64,000 bases of DNA from Planctomycetia bacterium (GTDB lineage Bacteria; Planctomycetota; Planctomycetia; Gemmatales; HRBIN36). Every line of letters begins with the position of its first letter. Position 1 is the first letter of the stretch. The stretch covers positions 1-64,000 of the forward strand of contig JAEUIE010000045.1 of NCBI GenBank assembly GCA_016795155.1, read 5' to 3'. Below, in pieces: positions 55,814 to 64,000 of this stretch. The translations under genes and the position numbers were made by a program. Under the pieces are notes generated by a model. That model made no database searches and had not been told where the DNA came from. It saw only the letters and a program-made list of their open reading frames with translations.

Positions 55814-56200
55814 TTAAGCGTTTTCTTCTGCAAGCAGTTTGTCATACTCCGATTGATTCATCAGGGTATCAGCCAGTGATCCGCTTGGTTTGATTTTGAC
55901 GATCCAGCCTTTTTCATAGGGGCTTTCTGCAATCAGCATGGGATCGCCTGATAGTTTTTCGTTCACTTCAACCACGGTGCCATCGCAGGGAGCATACAAG
56001 TTGCCCACCGATTTGACTGATTCAATCTCAGCACAACTTTCACCTGCCTTGGTGGCGCTGCCTACTTTGGGTAGCTGCACGTAGAGCAGGTCTTTTAGCA
56101 TATCGACCGCATGCTGGGTAATACCGACGGCAACATTACCGGAGGCTTCCTTGTTGCACCATTCATGGGAAGGGCTGAAGCGATAGGTTGCAAGGTTCAT
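55814..56200 (-). CDS. gcvH: Glycine cleavage system H protein
   Basis: A 128-residue lipoyl carrier. YRFSPSHEWCNKEASGNVAV, ITQHAVDMLKDLLYVQLP and the lipoylation motif ESVKSVGNLYAP (modified lysine in SVKS) are conserved. It shuttles the aminomethyl group from GcvP to GcvT. AAGGA precedes ATG 56200. It lies between gcvT (38 bp) and gcvPA (68 bp) on one strand. Confidence 0.97.
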   Translation of the reverse strand: MNLATYRFSPSHEWCNKEASGNVAVGITQHAVDMLKDLLYVQLPKVGSATKAGESCAEIESVKSVGNLYAPCDGTVVEVNEKLSGDPMLIAESPYEKGWIVKIKPSGSLADTLMNQSEYDKLLAEENA

Positions 56201-56238
56201 GCGGTCGTCCTTAGAGAGGTTGTTTTTCGGTGACAGTT

Positions 56239-57324
56239 TTACGATTTTGGCCTAGAATAAAACGGCATTTTAACAACAGTAGCCGGCTGCAATTGGCCTC
56301 GAATATCAATCGATACCACGGTTCCCAGACTGGATTGTGCCTGAGGCACGTAGCCCATGGCGATTGATTTTTGCAGCGTCGGAGTGAAGGTGCCACTCGT
56401 TACAGTGCCAATGGTCTGTCCCTGCAATTGAATGTTGCATCCTTCGCGTGCAGGCCGTTTGCCTTCCAGTTCCAATCCAACTCTGACCGGCAGATCCTTT
56501 TTCTGTTGCCGCTCCATGATGGCGGTCTTGCCGATGAAGGCTCCCTTATCAAATTTGACAGCCCACGATAAACCAGCCTGGATTGGGTCAATGGATTCAC
56601 TCAGTTCATGACCGTAGAGGGGCATGGAGGCTTCCAGGCGAAGCGTATCGCGAGCACCCAGGCCTGCAGGCTTACCACCCAGCGTTTCCAGTTCGTCCCA
56701 CAAGCTGTTGGCATGATCATTGCCGATCATGATCTCTACGCCATCTTCTCCGGTGTATCCCGTGCGGCTCAGCACACATTGCTGTCCCATGCATCGTGTT
56801 GCTGCGGCGAAGTAATACTTCAGGCTGGCTGGGTCTACTTCAGTCAGACCGCGAACGATCTCAATCGCTCGAGGACCTTGGACAGCAATCATGGCTGTGT
56901 GCATCGTCTGATCGTTGAGTTCAACTTTCATTCCCTCACGGTGCCTGTTCAACCATTCCACAATCTTGGTTCGGTTGCTGGCATTGACCACCATGGAATA
57001 TCCATATGGCCACTTGTAGACCAGGACATCGTCCAGGATGCAGCCTAGTTCGTTGCAGATCAGGCTGTAACGCACCTGGCCATCTTTCATGGTGCTGATG
57101 TTATTGGTGCAGACTTTTTCCAGAAGAGCTAAAGCATCGGTGCCGCTGAAACTGAGTCGTGCCATATGACCAATATCAAACAAACCTGCATGACTGCGTA
57201 CGGCGTGATGTTCGTCTACGATGCTGGTATAAACCACGGGCATCATCCAGCCCGCAAACTCCACCATGCGGGCGCCCAGATCGACATGTTGCTGATACAA
57301 GGCAGTTTTGGGAATATCGCTCAC
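56239..57324 (-). CDS. gcvT: Glycine cleavage system aminomethyltransferase (T protein)
   Basis: A 361-residue tetrahydrofolate-dependent aminomethyltransferase. ARMVEFAGWMMPVVYTS, YSLICNELGCILDD, AVQGPRAIEIV, SRTGYTGEDGVEIM, LRLEASMPLYGHEL and TSGTFTPTLQKSIAMGYV match the family along its length. It releases ammonia and forms methylene-THF from the GcvH-bound intermediate. The start is GTG 57324. It is the first gene of gcvT-gcvH-gcvPA. Confidence 0.96.
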   Translation of the reverse strand: MSDIPKTALYQQHVDLGARMVEFAGWMMPVVYTSIVDEHHAVRSHAGLFDIGHMARLSFSGTDALALLEKVCTNNISTMKDGQVRYSLICNELGCILDDVLVYKWPYGYSMVVNASNRTKIVEWLNRHREGMKVELNDQTMHTAMIAVQGPRAIEIVRGLTEVDPASLKYYFAAATRCMGQQCVLSRTGYTGEDGVEIMIGNDHANSLWDELETLGGKPAGLGARDTLRLEASMPLYGHELSESIDPIQAGLSWAVKFDKGAFIGKTAIMERQQKKDLPVRVGLELEGKRPAREGCNIQLQGQTIGTVTSGTFTPTLQKSIAMGYVPQAQSSLGTVVSIDIRGQLQPATVVKMPFYSRPKS

Positions 57325-58134: not shown

Positions 58135-58192
58135 CATATAGTTACTCGTTACTTGAACTGCTTAATCGTCAAGTCGTAAAGGAGTGATTTCG

Positions 58193-58609
58193 ATGCGTAT
58201 GCTTCAAACCTTGCCTGGTTACAACTCGTTCATTCGAGAAATGAATCGCGTCCACAGGGACCTCCAGTCAGCTATAGGCAATAACTACCCCGCAGTTAAC
58301 ATGTGGGAAGATGAAAACTATCTTTATGTGGAAAGTGAATTGCCTGGTTATCAACAGAGTGACCTCCATATCTACATCACTGGTGAAGATCAGTTGTTGA
58401 TGAAAGGTGAACGAAAACCTGTTGTCATCGAAAACGCAGTCTGTCATCGACAGGAAAGAAGCTTTGGCAGCTTTGAACGTACCATGACATTGCCTGTCAA
58501 AGTGGATGCAAACCAGGTGAAGGCAACATTTACCAATGGTATTCTCAACCTGGTACTGACCAAATCTGCTGCAGCTAAGCCACAGAAAATCGAGATCACA
58601 GTGAGCTGA
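58193..58609 (+). CDS. Hsp20/alpha-crystallin small heat-shock protein
   Basis: A 138-residue small heat-shock protein. ATG 58193 is used because AAGGAG lies eight bases upstream; GTG 58184 overlaps that site and is rejected. The alpha-crystallin domain includes PAVNMWEDENYLYVESELPG, RSFGSFERTMTLPVKVDANQ and VKATFTNGILNLVLTK, with the conserved GIL dimer motif. It forms oligomers that hold unfolded proteins. It is followed after 74 bp by a second Hsp20 gene; a probable sigma-54 promoter precedes both. Confidence 0.95.
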   Translation: MRMLQTLPGYNSFIREMNRVHRDLQSAIGNNYPAVNMWEDENYLYVESELPGYQQSDLHIYITGEDQLLMKGERKPVVIENAVCHRQERSFGSFERTMTLPVKVDANQVKATFTNGILNLVLTKSAAAKPQKIEITVS

Positions 58610-58683
58610 TCCATTTATCCAGAAGCCAACTCGGTAACGATAGGCCAGTCATTATCCAACAGAAAATAATCACGGAGAGAACC

Positions 58684-59079
58684 ATGTCTAACACTTGCAC
58701 TGTTCCAGCTACGTCTGAAATGACCGTCAATCAAGAGTCTGTACGTACCAATGCACCAACATTCACTCCCCGAGTGGATGTATGGGAGACAGATCACGAA
58801 TTCCAATTTCATGCAGAACTTCCTGGCGTGGAGCCTGCCAATATCAGTCTGAACTTTGAGAATGGCTATCTGACATTGCAAGGGAAGGTTGCACCACCAG
58901 CTAATCGTCCAGGTGCCTTGTTACGGGAATATGCCGTGGGTGATTACTACCGGCAGTTTTCGATCAACGACGAGGTCGATGTAAACAGGATTTCTGCTGA
59001 ATACAAACTTGGCGTGCTGACTGTCAAACTACCCAAACGGGAAGAATTGAAACCAAGAAAAATAGAAATCACTGCATAA
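58684..59079 (+). CDS. Hsp20/alpha-crystallin small heat-shock protein
   Basis: A 131-residue small heat-shock protein, a diverged paralogue of its upstream neighbour. The crystallin domain has RVDVWETDHEFQFHAELPGV, NISLNFENGYLTLQGKV, YRQFSINDEVDVNRISA and KLGVLTVKLPKRE, where GVL takes the place of the GIL motif. GGAGAG precedes ATG 58684. Two diverged copies in tandem suggest mixed oligomers, which is inferred. A terminator follows at 59085. Confidence 0.94.
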   Translation: MSNTCTVPATSEMTVNQESVRTNAPTFTPRVDVWETDHEFQFHAELPGVEPANISLNFENGYLTLQGKVAPPANRPGALLREYAVGDYYRQFSINDEVDVNRISAEYKLGVLTVKLPKREELKPRKIEITA

Positions 59080-59121: not shown

Positions 59122-59150
59122 AAAGACATGGCATGATGTCATGTCTTTTA
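59122..59150. terminator. Second, bidirectional terminator hairpin
   Basis: AAAGACATG (59122-59130) pairs with CATGTCTTT (59140-59148), with T-rich sequence on both sides. It backs up the Hsp20 terminator and also lies at the very end of sppA, whose stop codon is 59148-59150. Confidence 0.7.
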
Positions 59151-60932
59151 CTTTGATTGAACTGCGTATGGCGCCATCAGCCAGATGCGTTCCTGTGGGT
59201 GGCGGGACACCATGTCAAACAACTGCAAGTGTTTCTGTAAGCTTGGCATACTGTGAATCAAGCCTTGGATTTTGCTGGTTACTTCAGCATCGAATAAAGA
59301 ATCAAGGAATGATCCTTTACCCTTGGGCTGAATCCATAATTCAACCTCTTTATTGTCTTCGAGTCCGACTTTCTTTTTGGCATAGGCAATAGCATCATTG
59401 AGGGTGCCTACTTCATCCACCAAGCCGATTTCCTTGGCAGTTCGCCCTGTCCAGATGCGTCCACCAGCCACTTTCTTGATATCTTCCAGGGTCAGATTTC
59501 TTCCAGCCTTCTTGCGGCCTTCGAGAACCCGGTTCAGGAAAGTATCGTACACATCGCTCATCATGTTCACCATGACGCCTCGTTCTTCTTCGGTAAACGG
59601 GCGATCCATGCTCATGAAATCGCTGCGTTTGCCACGAGTTACCAGTTCGTTGTTGATGCCGATCTTTTCGAAGATGCCACCCATCACCAATTTCATGGAG
59701 ATGACACCGATGGAGCCGGTGATGGTGCCTGGTTCAGCGAAAATCCTGTCGGCACCACAGGAAATATAGTAACCGCCAGAACCAGCCATTGATCCCATGC
59801 TGACAATGATGGGCTTCTTTGCATCGATAGTTGCTTTCCAGATGAGATCGCTGGCGAGCGCTGAGCCACCAGGGCTGTCAACGCGAAGTACAATAGCTTT
59901 GACGGTTGGTTCATCCGCTGCCTTTTTGATCAGATCCACCATGGTGGTTGATCCCATGGATTCACCCATCATGCTGACGCCGCTCTTGCCGGTTTGAATG
60001 GCACCCTGGGCATAGATGACAGCAACCTTGGGTTTGTCATTGAGCTTGGCATCCTTTTGCGGGGTGAGCATCTTCAGCAGTGCAAAAGGATTCGACAGAT
60101 CGAGTTCCGACTTGGATTTGCCATAGTCTTTGCGAACAGCGATTTTCTCGATGCCAGACTGCTGTTTCACCTCTGTGATGACGTCATCGACATAAGCAAT
60201 CTTGTCAACGAGTCCAGCTTCGAGAGCTGCCTTGGGAGTATACATGCCTACATCAACAGCATTGCGTGCCTTGGTTGCATCAAAGCCCTTGCGGGAGCTT
60301 GCCAGGGTTTCGACGAGGATTTCGAAATAATCATCAGCCAGTTTGTCCCATTGCTTGCGGTTGGCCTCACTCATCTTGCTGCGACTGAAGGGTTCGCCTG
60401 CTGCCTTGAAATCGCCCAGAGGAACGACATCGCCTTTCAGCCCGATCTTATCCATAGCGTCTTTGAAGAAAGTAATTTCGAAGCGAATGCCCGGAATTTC
60501 TACACCACCTACTGGTGGGATAATGACTTCATCACAGGCTGATGCAACCAGATACCCGCCCATGGATGCTGATTCCATAAAGCAGTAAACCTTTTTGCCT
60601 GCCTTGCGATAGCTGGAGAGAGATTGTCGCAATTCTGATTGCTCGTTCCAATCGGCTTTGAATCCCTCCATATGAAGCACCAGTGCTTTCAGATCATTAT
60701 CTTTGGCAGCCTGGCTGATACGATCCTGCACGGATCGCAACGTATCACCCGAGGAAACTGTGAAAGGATTTGGCATTCCTGCTGGACCGTCACTGAGTGA
60801 GCCTTTCAGCACGATGATTCCAATGCCGGGGCCGGCATCTTTTCCCTTCTTGCCTGATTGTGCGAGTACTGATGTGTTCAGGCAGAATACTGAGAAAATC
60901 AGTACTCCAAGCCAGTGGGTTTTCAGACGCAT
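59148..60932 (-). CDS. sppA: Signal peptide peptidase SppA, long form
   Basis: A 594-residue two-domain S49 protease with an N-terminal membrane anchor or signal (about 1-24). The catalytic pair is K176 (GDFKAAGEPFSR, aligning with the lysine of E. coli SppA) in the first half and S385 (GSMAGSGGYY) in the second. The second domain also has RVDSPGGSALASDLIW. It cleaves leftover signal peptides and membrane-protein fragments on the periplasmic side. ATG 60932 has GGGAG eight bases upstream; an ATG at 60968 would add 12 residues before the signal and is less likely. Confidence 0.93.
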   Translation of the reverse strand: MRLKTHWLGVLIFSVFCLNTSVLAQSGKKGKDAGPGIGIIVLKGSLSDGPAGMPNPFTVSSGDTLRSVQDRISQAAKDNDLKALVLHMEGFKADWNEQSELRQSLSSYRKAGKKVYCFMESASMGGYLVASACDEVIIPPVGGVEIPGIRFEITFFKDAMDKIGLKGDVVPLGDFKAAGEPFSRSKMSEANRKQWDKLADDYFEILVETLASSRKGFDATKARNAVDVGMYTPKAALEAGLVDKIAYVDDVITEVKQQSGIEKIAVRKDYGKSKSELDLSNPFALLKMLTPQKDAKLNDKPKVAVIYAQGAIQTGKSGVSMMGESMGSTTMVDLIKKAADEPTVKAIVLRVDSPGGSALASDLIWKATIDAKKPIIVSMGSMAGSGGYYISCGADRIFAEPGTITGSIGVISMKLVMGGIFEKIGINNELVTRGKRSDFMSMDRPFTEEERGVMVNMMSDVYDTFLNRVLEGRKKAGRNLTLEDIKKVAGGRIWTGRTAKEIGLVDEVGTLNDAIAYAKKKVGLEDNKEVELWIQPKGKGSFLDSLFDAEVTSKIQGLIHSMPSLQKHLQLFDMVSRHPQERIWLMAPYAVQSK

Positions 60933-61247
60933 GTAGCTTCTCCCTTGTGAACTGTTGTTGAACAACATACTCTGTTGGATATTCGTGAGTGTCGCTGATA
61001 AGTTTTGCTATTATACAAATTTCATTCTGAACAACGCCTTGATGATTTATGACGATGGCAAACTGGAGAGACTCATGCCAGAGTGAATTGTTTCACTCAC
61101 AGCATGATGTTTAAATTTCTTTAACTCTTGCTGGTTGCACTGTTCATCATCACGATGAACTCGTTCAATAACTGCATGATGTGATCGCATTCGGCTAAGT
61201 TGTCGGATTGCAACATAGTTCTGAGTTACGCAACAAGGAGACCTGCA
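60933..61247. other. Divergent intergenic region, no gene seen
   Basis: The 315 bp between sppA and the NYN-CSD gene are A+T-rich and must hold both promoters. I found no repeat, RNA gene or clear promoter consensus. A frame starting upstream at TTG 61200 joins the NYN gene, but it lacks a ribosome site. Confidence 0.5.
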
Positions 61248-62312
61248 TTGTCCAAGGCTATGATTTTTATTGATGGCACATGGCTTTATACTAATACACC
61301 AAGACTTTCCGAACTGGCTAACCGAAAAGACTATCACATTGATTTTGGAAAACTCCCCAAAGTATTAGGTGACAAAATTGCTGAGCGAACCGGAACCGAA
61401 GTGGATGTGGTTCGCACCTACTTGTTTGGGAGCTATGCCAGCAACTTTGATCGACGGGATGCCGATGCTGTGCAGCGTCGCCTTGATTTCTTCAATATGC
61501 TGCGCGAAGAACATCATTATGATGTGGAAACATTCCCCATCAACTTTTTCGGTCGCCGGTTGAGAAGAATTGATCGCGAACCGGGTGACAACTTTGAGCC
61601 TCGCGAAAAATGTGTCGATATTGCCATGGCAACCAATATGCTGGTGCAGGCTTATCAGCATGGGTATGACATTGCAATAGACCTGCTGGGTGATCTTGAT
61701 TTCAAACCGGTGCTTCAGGAAGTGCGGCGCTTGGGCAAACGAGTACAGATTGTCAGCATTCGTACCAGTTGCGCTCCTGAAATTGCTGATACTGCAGATC
61801 CTCAGCGTATCAAGGATTTTGATACCATCTGGCTGGAAGATCTCGTTGGGCCATTGGAATTGACCTATGAAAGGCATCAACGTTCCTGTGAGTCGCCCAA
61901 CCATGTTGGCGAACGAGTTGTCTGGACTACGTTCAGGCCCCGCAAAGGTCAGCGCTTCTATTGCGATGTCTGCCGGGCAGAATTCCAGCAGCAGAAGATG
62001 GAAGCCATACAGGAGTATGTGACTGATGATGGTAACTACATGCCTCAGGAAGACCTGCCGACACAGACGGGTGAAGTCAAGAAGAAAGTGGCAGATCGTG
62101 GCTACGGATTTATCCAGGCCGAAGATGGTTATGATTACTTCTTCCACTTGACCGATCTGGAACCAGGCTTGGATTTCCTCGATATCAATGAAGGAATGAA
62201 AGTATCCTTCTCTGTCAAGCGTAGCCCCAGTCCGCTTAAGGCTGGTGCTGCACAATTGGTCAGACGCATGCAACAGATGGAAGACATGGGCATGATGTCG
62301 GATGAAGAATAA
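61248..62312 (+). CDS. NYN-domain (LabA/DUF88) ribonuclease fused to a cold-shock domain
   Basis: A 354-residue cytosolic protein. The start is TTG 61248, with AAGGAG seven bases upstream; it gives MSKAMIFIDGTWLYTN, a standard NYN start with the catalytic aspartate at D9. Further NYN acidic motifs are REKCVDIAMATNMLVQA and IDLLGDLDFKPVLQEVRRLG. A middle segment has cysteines in RSCESP and FYCDVC, probably a zinc-binding ribbon. The C-terminal part (about 280-345), GEVKKKVADRGYGFIQAEDG, YDYFFHLTDL and GMKVSFSVKRS, is a cold-shock RNA-binding domain. NYN proteins are PIN-like nucleases, so a structure-guided RNase is the natural inference. Single gene with its own terminator. Confidence 0.85.
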   Translation: MSKAMIFIDGTWLYTNTPRLSELANRKDYHIDFGKLPKVLGDKIAERTGTEVDVVRTYLFGSYASNFDRRDADAVQRRLDFFNMLREEHHYDVETFPINFFGRRLRRIDREPGDNFEPREKCVDIAMATNMLVQAYQHGYDIAIDLLGDLDFKPVLQEVRRLGKRVQIVSIRTSCAPEIADTADPQRIKDFDTIWLEDLVGPLELTYERHQRSCESPNHVGERVVWTTFRPRKGQRFYCDVCRAEFQQQKMEAIQEYVTDDGNYMPQEDLPTQTGEVKKKVADRGYGFIQAEDGYDYFFHLTDLEPGLDFLDINEGMKVSFSVKRSPSPLKAGAAQLVRRMQQMEDMGMMSDEE

Positions 62313-62336
62313 TTCGAGTTGGTTCAAATCGTTCAG

Positions 62337-62367
62337 CAGGCTCTCCTATTCGGAGAGCCTGTTTTGT
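62337..62367 (+). terminator. Rho-independent terminator
   Basis: CAGGCTCTCC (62337-62346) pairs perfectly with GGAGAGCCTG (62352-62361) and TTTTGT follows. It ends the NYN-CSD gene. Confidence 0.92.
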
Positions 62368-62507
62368 AGGGTTAACAAAAATTATGTCGCACGCTATAAA
62401 ACTTCACCACATCTCCATGATGCGAGGAGACATCAAACATCATTCAGTTTGCAGCAATGCCATAGAATTCTAACTGTCAGGTTTCTCTTCCGTTGAGATC
62501 AATAAGC

Positions 62508-64000
62508 ATGTATGCATCCAGGAAACTGCTCGCTGTACTTGCAACGGTCGCTTTCTACGTTCTGCCTGCCCATTTATTGTTTGCAGCTGATGCACCCCAA
62601 ATCAGTGTGGTGATTGATGCGAGGCAGTTGCATCGCAAGCTGCTGTTCACCACGATGGAGATTCCATGCCAGGCTGGCGAATTGCGATTGTGGTATCCCA
62701 AATGGTATCCAGGTTCGCATGGTCCAATGGGGCGAGTGGAAGATATTGCAGGATTGCAAGTGACTACCTCCGATAGCAGGCCGCTTCCCTGGGAACGCGA
62801 TGAAGTGGAACTGCACTGTGTAAAAGTTCAGATTCCGGATGGATTATCGGCAGTGAAAGTAAAGATGACTACGATCTGCAATTCTCCAGGGATCAGTGCA
62901 GCAGGCATTTATACCTACGGCAACCTGAAGGTTGGTGTCATCAATTGGAACACCTGCGTTCTCTATCCGGAAGGGCCGAAGTCGGATGAGCAACCTGTTT
63001 CAGTTCGCCTGATTCTGCCTGAAACGTGGAAGCTTGCTTCGGCACTTAAAACACGAAAACAGGAAAAGAATGAGACAACCTTTGAGACGGTATCCCTGAC
63101 CGATTTGATTGATAATCCACTCATCGCAGGTGAAAATCTGCGGACCATCAAACTGGATTCTGGAAATACTCCACAGGCATATCTGCATCTGGCATCTGAA
63201 TCGAAGGAAGCAATCGAGATCAATGACAAGGTGATTGAGAAATACTCGCGGCTGGTTCAGGAAGCGGGAGCCATGTTTGGAGTGGCTCATTATCCTGAGT
63301 TCCATTTTCTGGTGACCTGCAGTGATGAACTGGGACTTTATGGTTTGGAACATCTTCGTTGCAGCCTGAACGGGGTTCGCAAGAACGATCTGGTAGATGA
63401 CAAAAGTCGTGTGGGTTGGGTTGCGATGTTGTTGCCTCACGAATACGTCCAACCCTGGTGTGGGAAATATCGCAGACCACAATCGATGATCACCCCGGAT
63501 TTTCACAGTCCGCAGAAAACCAGGATGCTGTGGGTCTATGAAGGCTTGGCACAATACCTGGGCGATGTCCTGATGGTGCGTTGTGGCCTGGTGACTCCAG
63601 AGACATACCGGGATACTCTGCGTGGCTACATCCATGGCCAGTTGCATAAAGCGGGACGAAAATGGCGTTCCCTGGAAGATACCTCCATAGCAGGTTATCT
63701 GCTTCGTCGGCCTTCTCCTAACTGGACCGATTTGCGACGGGATCAGGATTTTTATTTTGAAGGTATGCTGCTATGGATGGAATGTGATGCGATCATTCGT
63801 GATCTGTCGCAAGGCAAGAAAACTCTCGACGATTTCTGCAGGATTTTCTTTGCCAGTGTTCCTGGCAAAAAAACAGTGGCTGGCTACACCTACGAGGATG
63901 TGATTGCGGCACTCAGGCAGACCCAGGAATACGACTGGGAAAGCCTGTTCACCCGGCGAGTGAAATCGCCCATGGAATCGTTGCCCCTCGATTATCTCCA
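62508..64000 (+). CDS. Exported M61-like (glycyl aminopeptidase family) protein, 3' truncated by the window
   Basis: Open from ATG 62508 to the window end (497 codons and two bases); the rest lies outside. Signal peptide about 1-27 (ending LLFAA). The N-terminal beta domain (LRLWYPKWYPGSHGPMGRVE) and the catalytic segment (GLYGLEHLRCS, LPHEYVQPWCGKYRRP, RMLWVYEGLAQYLGD) match the M61 family. The zinc motif HEXXH reads HEYVQ: H311 and E312 are kept, the second histidine is Q315, and the third ligand E345 is kept. Loss of one zinc ligand may leave it inactive or altered. A PDZ domain usually follows in the family and would lie beyond the window. Start position has no strong ribosome site. Confidence 0.85.
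   Translation, partial: MYASRKLLAVLATVAFYVLPAHLLFAADAPQISVVIDARQLHRKLLFTTMEIPCQAGELRLWYPKWYPGSHGPMGRVEDIAGLQVTTSDSRPLPWERDEVELHCVKVQIPDGLSAVKVKMTTICNSPGISAAGIYTYGNLKVGVINWNTCVLYPEGPKSDEQPVSVRLILPETWKLASALKTRKQEKNETTFETVSLTDLIDNPLIAGENLRTIKLDSGNTPQAYLHLASESKEAIEINDKVIEKYSRLVQEAGAMFGVAHYPEFHFLVTCSDELGLYGLEHLRCSLNGVRKNDLVDDKSRVGWVAMLLPHEYVQPWCGKYRRPQSMITPDFHSPQKTRMLWVYEGLAQYLGDVLMVRCGLVTPETYRDTLRGYIHGQLHKAGRKWRSLEDTSIAGYLLRRPSPNWTDLRRDQDFYFEGMLLWMECDAIIRDLSQGKKTLDDFCRIFFASVPGKKTVAGYTYEDVIAALRQTQEYDWESLFTRRVKSPMESLPLDYL

Follow-up and report, generated by a model that had tools for sequence, protein, structure and literature searches.

The window, by which we mean the entire 64,000-nt stretch of planctomycete DNA that was analysed, carries near its right-hand end a complete gene for a protein in which an NYN (PIN-like) nuclease domain is followed by a putative metal knuckle and a C-terminal cold-shock domain (CSD). 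The features of the locus are collected in Table 1. The frame is open between the TTG at 61248 and the TAA at 62312, and the start is aligned with the starts of the orthologues at the same residue. The hairpin and the T run after the stop codon suggest that the gene may form a single-gene transcript; a consensus scan for promoters and terminators found no sites above those of shuffled sequences, and it did not list this hairpin. Farther to the left lie two HSP20 small heat-shock genes in tandem (58184-59079) and, on the minus strand, gcvT and gcvH (55814-57324).

Table 1. Features of the NYN-CSD gene and its surroundings, in window positions.
Feature	Positions	Strand	Details
Signal peptide peptidase SppA, divergent neighbour, ordinary	59148..60968	-	TIGR00705 E 4e-104
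Shine-Dalgarno AAGGAG	61235..61240	+	7 bases upstream of TTG start
Complete gene, NYN + putative metal knuckle + CSD	61248..62312	+	354 aa, TTG start, TAA stop
NYN (PIN-like) nuclease domain, aa 3-183	61254..61796	+	PF01936; acids D9, E120, D124, D149, D151
Metal-knuckle segment (putative), aa 214-242	61887..61973	+	C214, H219, C239, C242, ligand-type residues
CSD, aa 274-327 by Pfam (about 270-341 in structure alignments)	62067..62228	+	GYGFI, YFFH motifs
10-bp perfect hairpin then TTTT, likely terminator	62337..62365	+	read directly
M61 family peptidase, downstream neighbour, ordinary	62493..63998	+	Peptidase_M61 E 1e-27; extends past window end

Both outer domains are recognised by Pfam above the curated cut-offs: PF01936 (NYN) at E 3e-11, with 44.5 bits against a cut-off of 24.2, and PF00313 (CSD) at E 9e-9, with 35.5 bits against 27. 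We built an AlphaFold2 model from 18 sequences, which has a mean pLDDT of 84.7 and falls below 50 at residues 262-266 and 344-354. Its N-terminal part has the PIN-like fold, matching PDB 2qip with Z 15.7 over 155 residues (rmsd 3.2) and the NYN domain of MARF1 with Z 14.3 (mouse, 5yaa) and Z 13.6 (human, 6fdl). Its C-terminal part matches CspA-type domains with Z about 10 (CspA itself, 1mjc, Z 10.1, rmsd 2.5, 67 residues), so that the C terminus does have the cold-shock fold that an earlier note on this DNA had predicted from the letters. With Foldseek alone, cold-shock proteins ranked first; Rae1/YacP did not appear among the best 50 rows of the structure searches against the PDB, which excludes nothing. 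Pfam, conservation and fold matches together bear out the joining of an NYN domain, a Cys-rich segment and a CSD in one protein, and the three-part architecture and both outer folds are thereby established by computation.

Within the window's own family (f1) the gene is present in five of seven genomes, the other four copies being 60-66% identical to that of the window. Elsewhere among 297 genomes of the class, the hits listed down to E 1e-5 cover part of the protein, in nearly all cases the CSD, and in a sample of the phylum two of 392 genomes have the gene, one of these two without the CSD. A planctomycete outside the class (G325) has the NYN domain and the knuckle without a CSD. Because the gene is so patchy, at 5/7 in the family and 2/392 in the phylum sample, its function is not a general one.

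A scan of genome contigs returned 50 loci, of which 46 were translated (all but L075, L085, L090 and L091). Together with the window protein, 17 full-length NYN-knuckle-CSD proteins form an alignment of 18 rows, A3, whose members are 44-64% identical to the window protein. Four of its rows (L044, L045, L046 and L051) are the same-family genes again; the three rows from Omnitrophota are almost identical, and the two from Armatimonadetes are similar to each other. Outside the family, the records are labelled Thermoguttaceae, Armatimonadetes, Uhrbacteria, Chloroflexi, Omnitrophota, Desulfarculus, Desulfobacteraceae, Desulfobacterales, Deferribacteres and Saprospiraceae; all 17 relatives are titled as MAGs, and single taxon labels may be wrong. 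The Omnitrophota genes share flanking genes within their group, as do the Armatimonadetes genes. Judged by these records, whose labels span several distant phyla, the layout appears to occur in scattered bacterial lineages.

Pfam matches both NYN and CSD in 18/18 relatives at E 0.1 or better, and six residues of the NYN domain (D9, E120, K121, D124, D149 and D151) are identical in all 18 NYN-knuckle-CSD proteins. D9, the residue that the earlier note had singled out for mutation, is indeed the first NYN aspartate. From the order of the motifs we infer that D9, D124, D149 and D151 would be equivalent to D358/D426/D452 of MARF1.

The relatives that lack a CSD present a different picture. We aligned 15 of them (A4), setting aside L066, L068, L075, L076 and L079 on account of near identity or close kinship, and L080 since its frame continues into another protein. 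These proteins end soon after one or two C-x2-C...C-x2-C knuckles, and their labels are mostly Kiritimatiellae, Lentisphaerae, Verrucomicrobia or unclassified. Of their active-site acids, the first Asp survives in 15/15, the KCVD-type Asp in 2/15, the GD Asp in 11/15, and the next acid in 13/15 (D in 12, E in 1). Since most rows of A4 have lost active-site acids, the intact set of the CSD-bearing proteins is not something that all relatives inherit as a matter of course; the CSD-less NYN-knuckle proteins are perhaps a group of pseudo-nucleases. Many of the rows L060-L074 and L077 come from rumen or gut records.

A tree built from the NYN parts only places the 18 CSD-bearing proteins in a single clade, with support 97/97. 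A second kind of NYN-CSD protein (L036, L038, L040, L041 and L042) occurs in five sister-family genomes (G038, G043, G047, G241 and G265). It resembles the window's kind in having an NYN domain with a C-terminal CSD and in belonging to the same taxonomic order, but differs in that it has no metal knuckle by eye and sits on a separate, very long branch of the NYN tree. When both kinds were constrained to group together, the constraint was not rejected (p-AU 0.219), and we therefore dropped the idea that the two NYN-CSD fusions arose independently by convergence.

The RNP1/RNP2 core of the CSD is kept across the 18 proteins. G287, F288, I289 and F299 are identical in all of them, so that the GFI motif is complete; position 286 is aromatic in 18/18 (Y in 9, F in 9), position 298 is aromatic in 17/18, and His300 is present in 17/18. 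The remaining RNA-contact positions, taken like the others from the RNP1, RNP2 and KW motifs of CspA, are often replaced. Position 279, which we take to be the Trp site of CspA, is Trp in none of the 18 (K 9, R 4, T 3, F 1, N 1). None has an aromatic residue at position 280 (K 10, I 6, L 2), and no more than 5/18 have F or Y at position 301. Of seven presumed contact positions, four are retained in the window protein. One relative has a worn CSD (L078), and another has Ser at both 297 and 298 (L046).

Between the two folds, C214, H219, C239 and C242 are identical in 18/18 and are spaced as two knuckles, C-x4-H and C-x2-C. The Cys-rich segment of the earlier note is thus real, with four ligand-type residues kept throughout; they are three cysteines and a histidine rather than four cysteines. 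Modelled alone, the 63-residue segment folds as a hairpin followed by a helix (pLDDT 88.9). At E 0.1, Pfam assigns the window protein to no zinc family, and zf_Tbcl_2 is matched in one of the 18 relatives at E 0.034. Searches with the segment by Foldseek, by VIA and by sequence give no significant match to any named family or fold, the best of each structure search being a weak match to a PHD finger (Foldseek E 3.9, VIA Z 2.5). We accordingly do not describe this segment as a proven zinc ribbon or treble clef; going by its residues, we regard it as a putative knuckle that would bind a metal.

To look at the surroundings of the gene, we clustered the ORFs flanking the 18 loci with the target gene fixed, obtaining 169 proteins in 15 clusters, one of which is the target gene itself (18/18). 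Each of the other 14 families is confined to one labelled group, whether Gemmatales, Omnitrophota or Armatimonadetes, and no neighbour is common to different labelled groups in the 18 loci, some of which have short flanks (L052, L057). An operon partner was therefore rejected. A mobile or viral origin was rejected as well, because there is no close relative in IMG/VR, where single-sequence patterns were used and distant relatives could be missed, and because the matches in phage records (two, CSD part only) and plasmid records (one, NYN part only) are part-length. Rfam has no match at 60800-62700, and a cold-shock RNA thermosensor at the gene was rejected on that ground. The earlier note had also proposed cold-induced RNA structures as targets. 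For these we found nothing, neither an Rfam match nor a partner conserved across groups, and that the domain is called "cold-shock" is no evidence for them. Cold-shock domains bind single strands in general.

The window protein carries the only CSD found in its own genome (97% complete, 68 contigs). In 102 Gemmatales genomes, 17 have a CSD match at E 0.001 and 16 have one over the cut-off, amounting to 20 places in 19 proteins; no free-standing cold-shock protein was found in this one Pfam search of the 102 genomes, many of them drafts, for which the control was positive in 9 of 14 named genomes. The 19 proteins comprise five NYN-knuckle-CSD proteins, five of the second NYN-CSD kind, five S30AE-CSD proteins, and four others: a DUF3825 protein with a double CSD, an AAA ATPase, a RAMP protein (below the cut-off) and a protein of G304. 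In the last, the CSD is the C-terminal part of a longer frame, which extends to the end of its contig and has no other Pfam match, so that it is only probably a fusion. The DUF3825 protein (L035:1327-2694, DUF3825 E 1e-68) occurs in one genome of the order, and in the RAMP-superfamily protein (L100:303-2969, minus strand) the weak CSD is N-terminal. The S30AE-CSD proteins, which are of the type of HPFcold, occur in five Gemmatales genomes (L037, L039, L095, L096, L097), including two of the window's family (G001 and G005); a figure legend on HPFcold, in the available text of PMC13392368, names lineages without Planctomycetota but includes a category "Other".

In the class sample, by comparison, a CSD is matched in 116 of the 198 genomes, nine of these being Gemmatales, and the strongest among the CSD frames listed are mostly 66-125 codons long, which is the size of a free cold-shock protein. 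That CSDs in Gemmatales are seen solely as fusions, as judged from these searches, appears unexpected, and it is more surprising to us than the NYN-knuckle-CSD layout itself. A similar state has been reported for Coxiella, which is said to have lost its dedicated cold-shock proteins while keeping HPFcold with its CSD (PMC13392368, available text). The A3 members from outside the family come from 13 genomes, every one of which has a CSD match; in four of them (G669, G671, G673 and G674) the fused one is the only match found, and the other nine have further matches, the worn fused CSD of G679 itself being below threshold. Being the sole CSD of a genome is therefore no general property of this gene family, and this speaks against a link between the fusion and the loss of free cold-shock proteins.

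Parts of this architecture have been described before. In 2010, fusions of OST-HTH/DUF88 proteins to S1 and cold-shock OB folds in bacteria were reported, as were fusions of the DUF88 (LK) nuclease to RNA-binding Zn-knuckles (PMC2848206, available text). The LK-nuclease, a LabA-like NYN, is of the same superfamily as the window protein, and 2qip, the best fold match here, is the structure used in that work; in its available text, however, it is OST-HTH proteins that carry the cold-shock fusions, whereas the window's family is without OST-HTH. Pfam matches only NYN and CSD in the window protein at E 0.1, and no OST-HTH is among the families listed for the 18. Relative to the 2010 fusions, what appears to be new here, as read from the sequences, is the knuckle and the CSD together in one family without OST-HTH. 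Beyond the mentions in the available text of PMC2848206, no NYN-zinc-CSD family came up in literature searches that cover few subscription papers.

Among better known systems, MARF1 and Regnase-1 (MCPIP1) resemble the window protein in joining a PIN-like/NYN nuclease to RNA-binding modules, but they are eukaryotic, and MARF1 is 12% identical over the aligned fold. The available account of MARF1 gives it LOTUS and RRM modules where the window protein has a knuckle and a CSD; in Regnase-1, a CCCH finger adjoins the PIN domain. Rae1/YacP is, like the window protein, a bacterial NYN endoribonuclease, and it is not known to have added RNA-binding domains. HPFcold likewise uses a C-terminal CSD as a targeting module, but there the partner is a ribosome-binding domain (S30AE) and not a nuclease; the window protein has no Pfam match to S30AE at E 1.

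Since the acids are intact and the CSD keeps its RNP1/RNP2 core, the protein is most plainly read as an endoribonuclease that brings its own grip on RNA. We predict a single-gene, stand-alone, metal-dependent endoribonuclease whose CSD grips single-stranded RNA, and we assign this reading a probability of about 0.65, our confidence being tempered by the replaced contact positions of the CSD (279, 280 and 301). The patchy occurrence of the gene and the failure of the knuckle to match a named fold count against this reading as well. Cutting activity, a preference for single strands and capture of the substrate by the CSD are what we infer: the NYN domain would be the cutter, dependent on a divalent metal; the C-terminal CSD would capture single-stranded RNA and feed it to the active site; and the metal knuckle would act as a rigid joint, perhaps with a second RNA contact. 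As a one-gene unit, the protein may serve in general RNA turnover or quality control. Two NYN enzymes of the same fold, MARF1 and a CRISPR-associated NYN, act endonucleolytically on single-stranded RNA (PMC6294520, PMC11346440), with Mn, or with Mn or Mg, as the metal (PMC11346440, PMC6294520), and in the available texts changes of aspartates abolish or strongly reduce cleavage (PMC11346440, PMC6294520). The earlier suggestion of an RNase aimed at single-stranded RNA by its extra domains fits these two enzymes, the intact acids and the fold matches; its cold-induced targets are unsupported.

The protein might instead be linked to the ribosome, its CSD docking at the mRNA exit or the 16S rRNA 3' end and its NYN domain cleaving the mRNA of ribosomes that have stalled or stand idle, as has been reported of Rae1/YacP. 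Such a role would fit the CSD of the HPFcold structure, which binds the anti-Shine-Dalgarno (PMC13392368, available text), and Rae1, an NYN protein that acts in ribosome-dependent mRNA decay (PMC11346440, available text). It would also fit the finding that Gemmatales CSDs occur only as fusions (one of the 19 only probably so), with the hibernation-factor domain as their main partner after NYN nucleases (five proteins). However, the window protein has no match at E 1 to chain 9t0z, a two-domain hibernation factor that we take to be probably HPFcold, whereas a Gemmatales S30AE-CSD protein matches it at 1e-35, and we consider the ribosomal role unlikely. A broader version, that Gemmatales lost their free cold-shock proteins and use the CSD as a targeting module, chiefly on RNases and hibernation factors, the NYN-knuckle-CSD protein being a nuclease directed to ribosomes or stalled mRNA whose CSD reads the 16S rRNA 3' end or the mRNA leader, strikes us as distinctly unlikely; if true, it would couple RNA decay to ribosome idling.

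The persistence of the NYN scaffold in the 15 aligned CSD-less proteins, several acids having been lost, raises the prospect that the NYN domain here is likewise dead or weak and serves as an RNA-binding regulator, as it may in those relatives; with five acids identical in all 18 CSD-bearing proteins, we find this highly improbable. PADLOC models do match the window protein (CSD_V at E 2.2e-9, HEC-09 at 1.3e-7, TPR plus cold-shock domain at 7e-4, LabA-like NYN at 1.4e-3), as might be expected of an anti-phage effector RNase, but these matches reflect shared domains, the two adjoining genes are ordinary (SppA and the M61 peptidase), no neighbour recurs across groups, and the virus and plasmid searches gave no close IMG/VR relative and only part-length matches (two phage, one plasmid). 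A defence role therefore seems to us extremely unlikely. As an observation apart, HEC-09, CSD_V, TPR-CSD and LabA-like NYN each match a single domain, and both domains recur in candidate defence systems.

On our preferred reading, that of a stand-alone endoribonuclease, the gene would combine a cutter and an RNA grip with the only CSD found in its genome. Because that CSD is the sole one, deletion or CLIP would read a single function without Csp paralogues standing in. Few bacterial NYN nucleases have known substrates. The same genome holds a second NYN protein (L101, G000:C28:7159-7584, Pfam E 2.8e-37), whose C-terminal part is long, acidic and repetitive-looking, and which the CSD search of the genome did not list.
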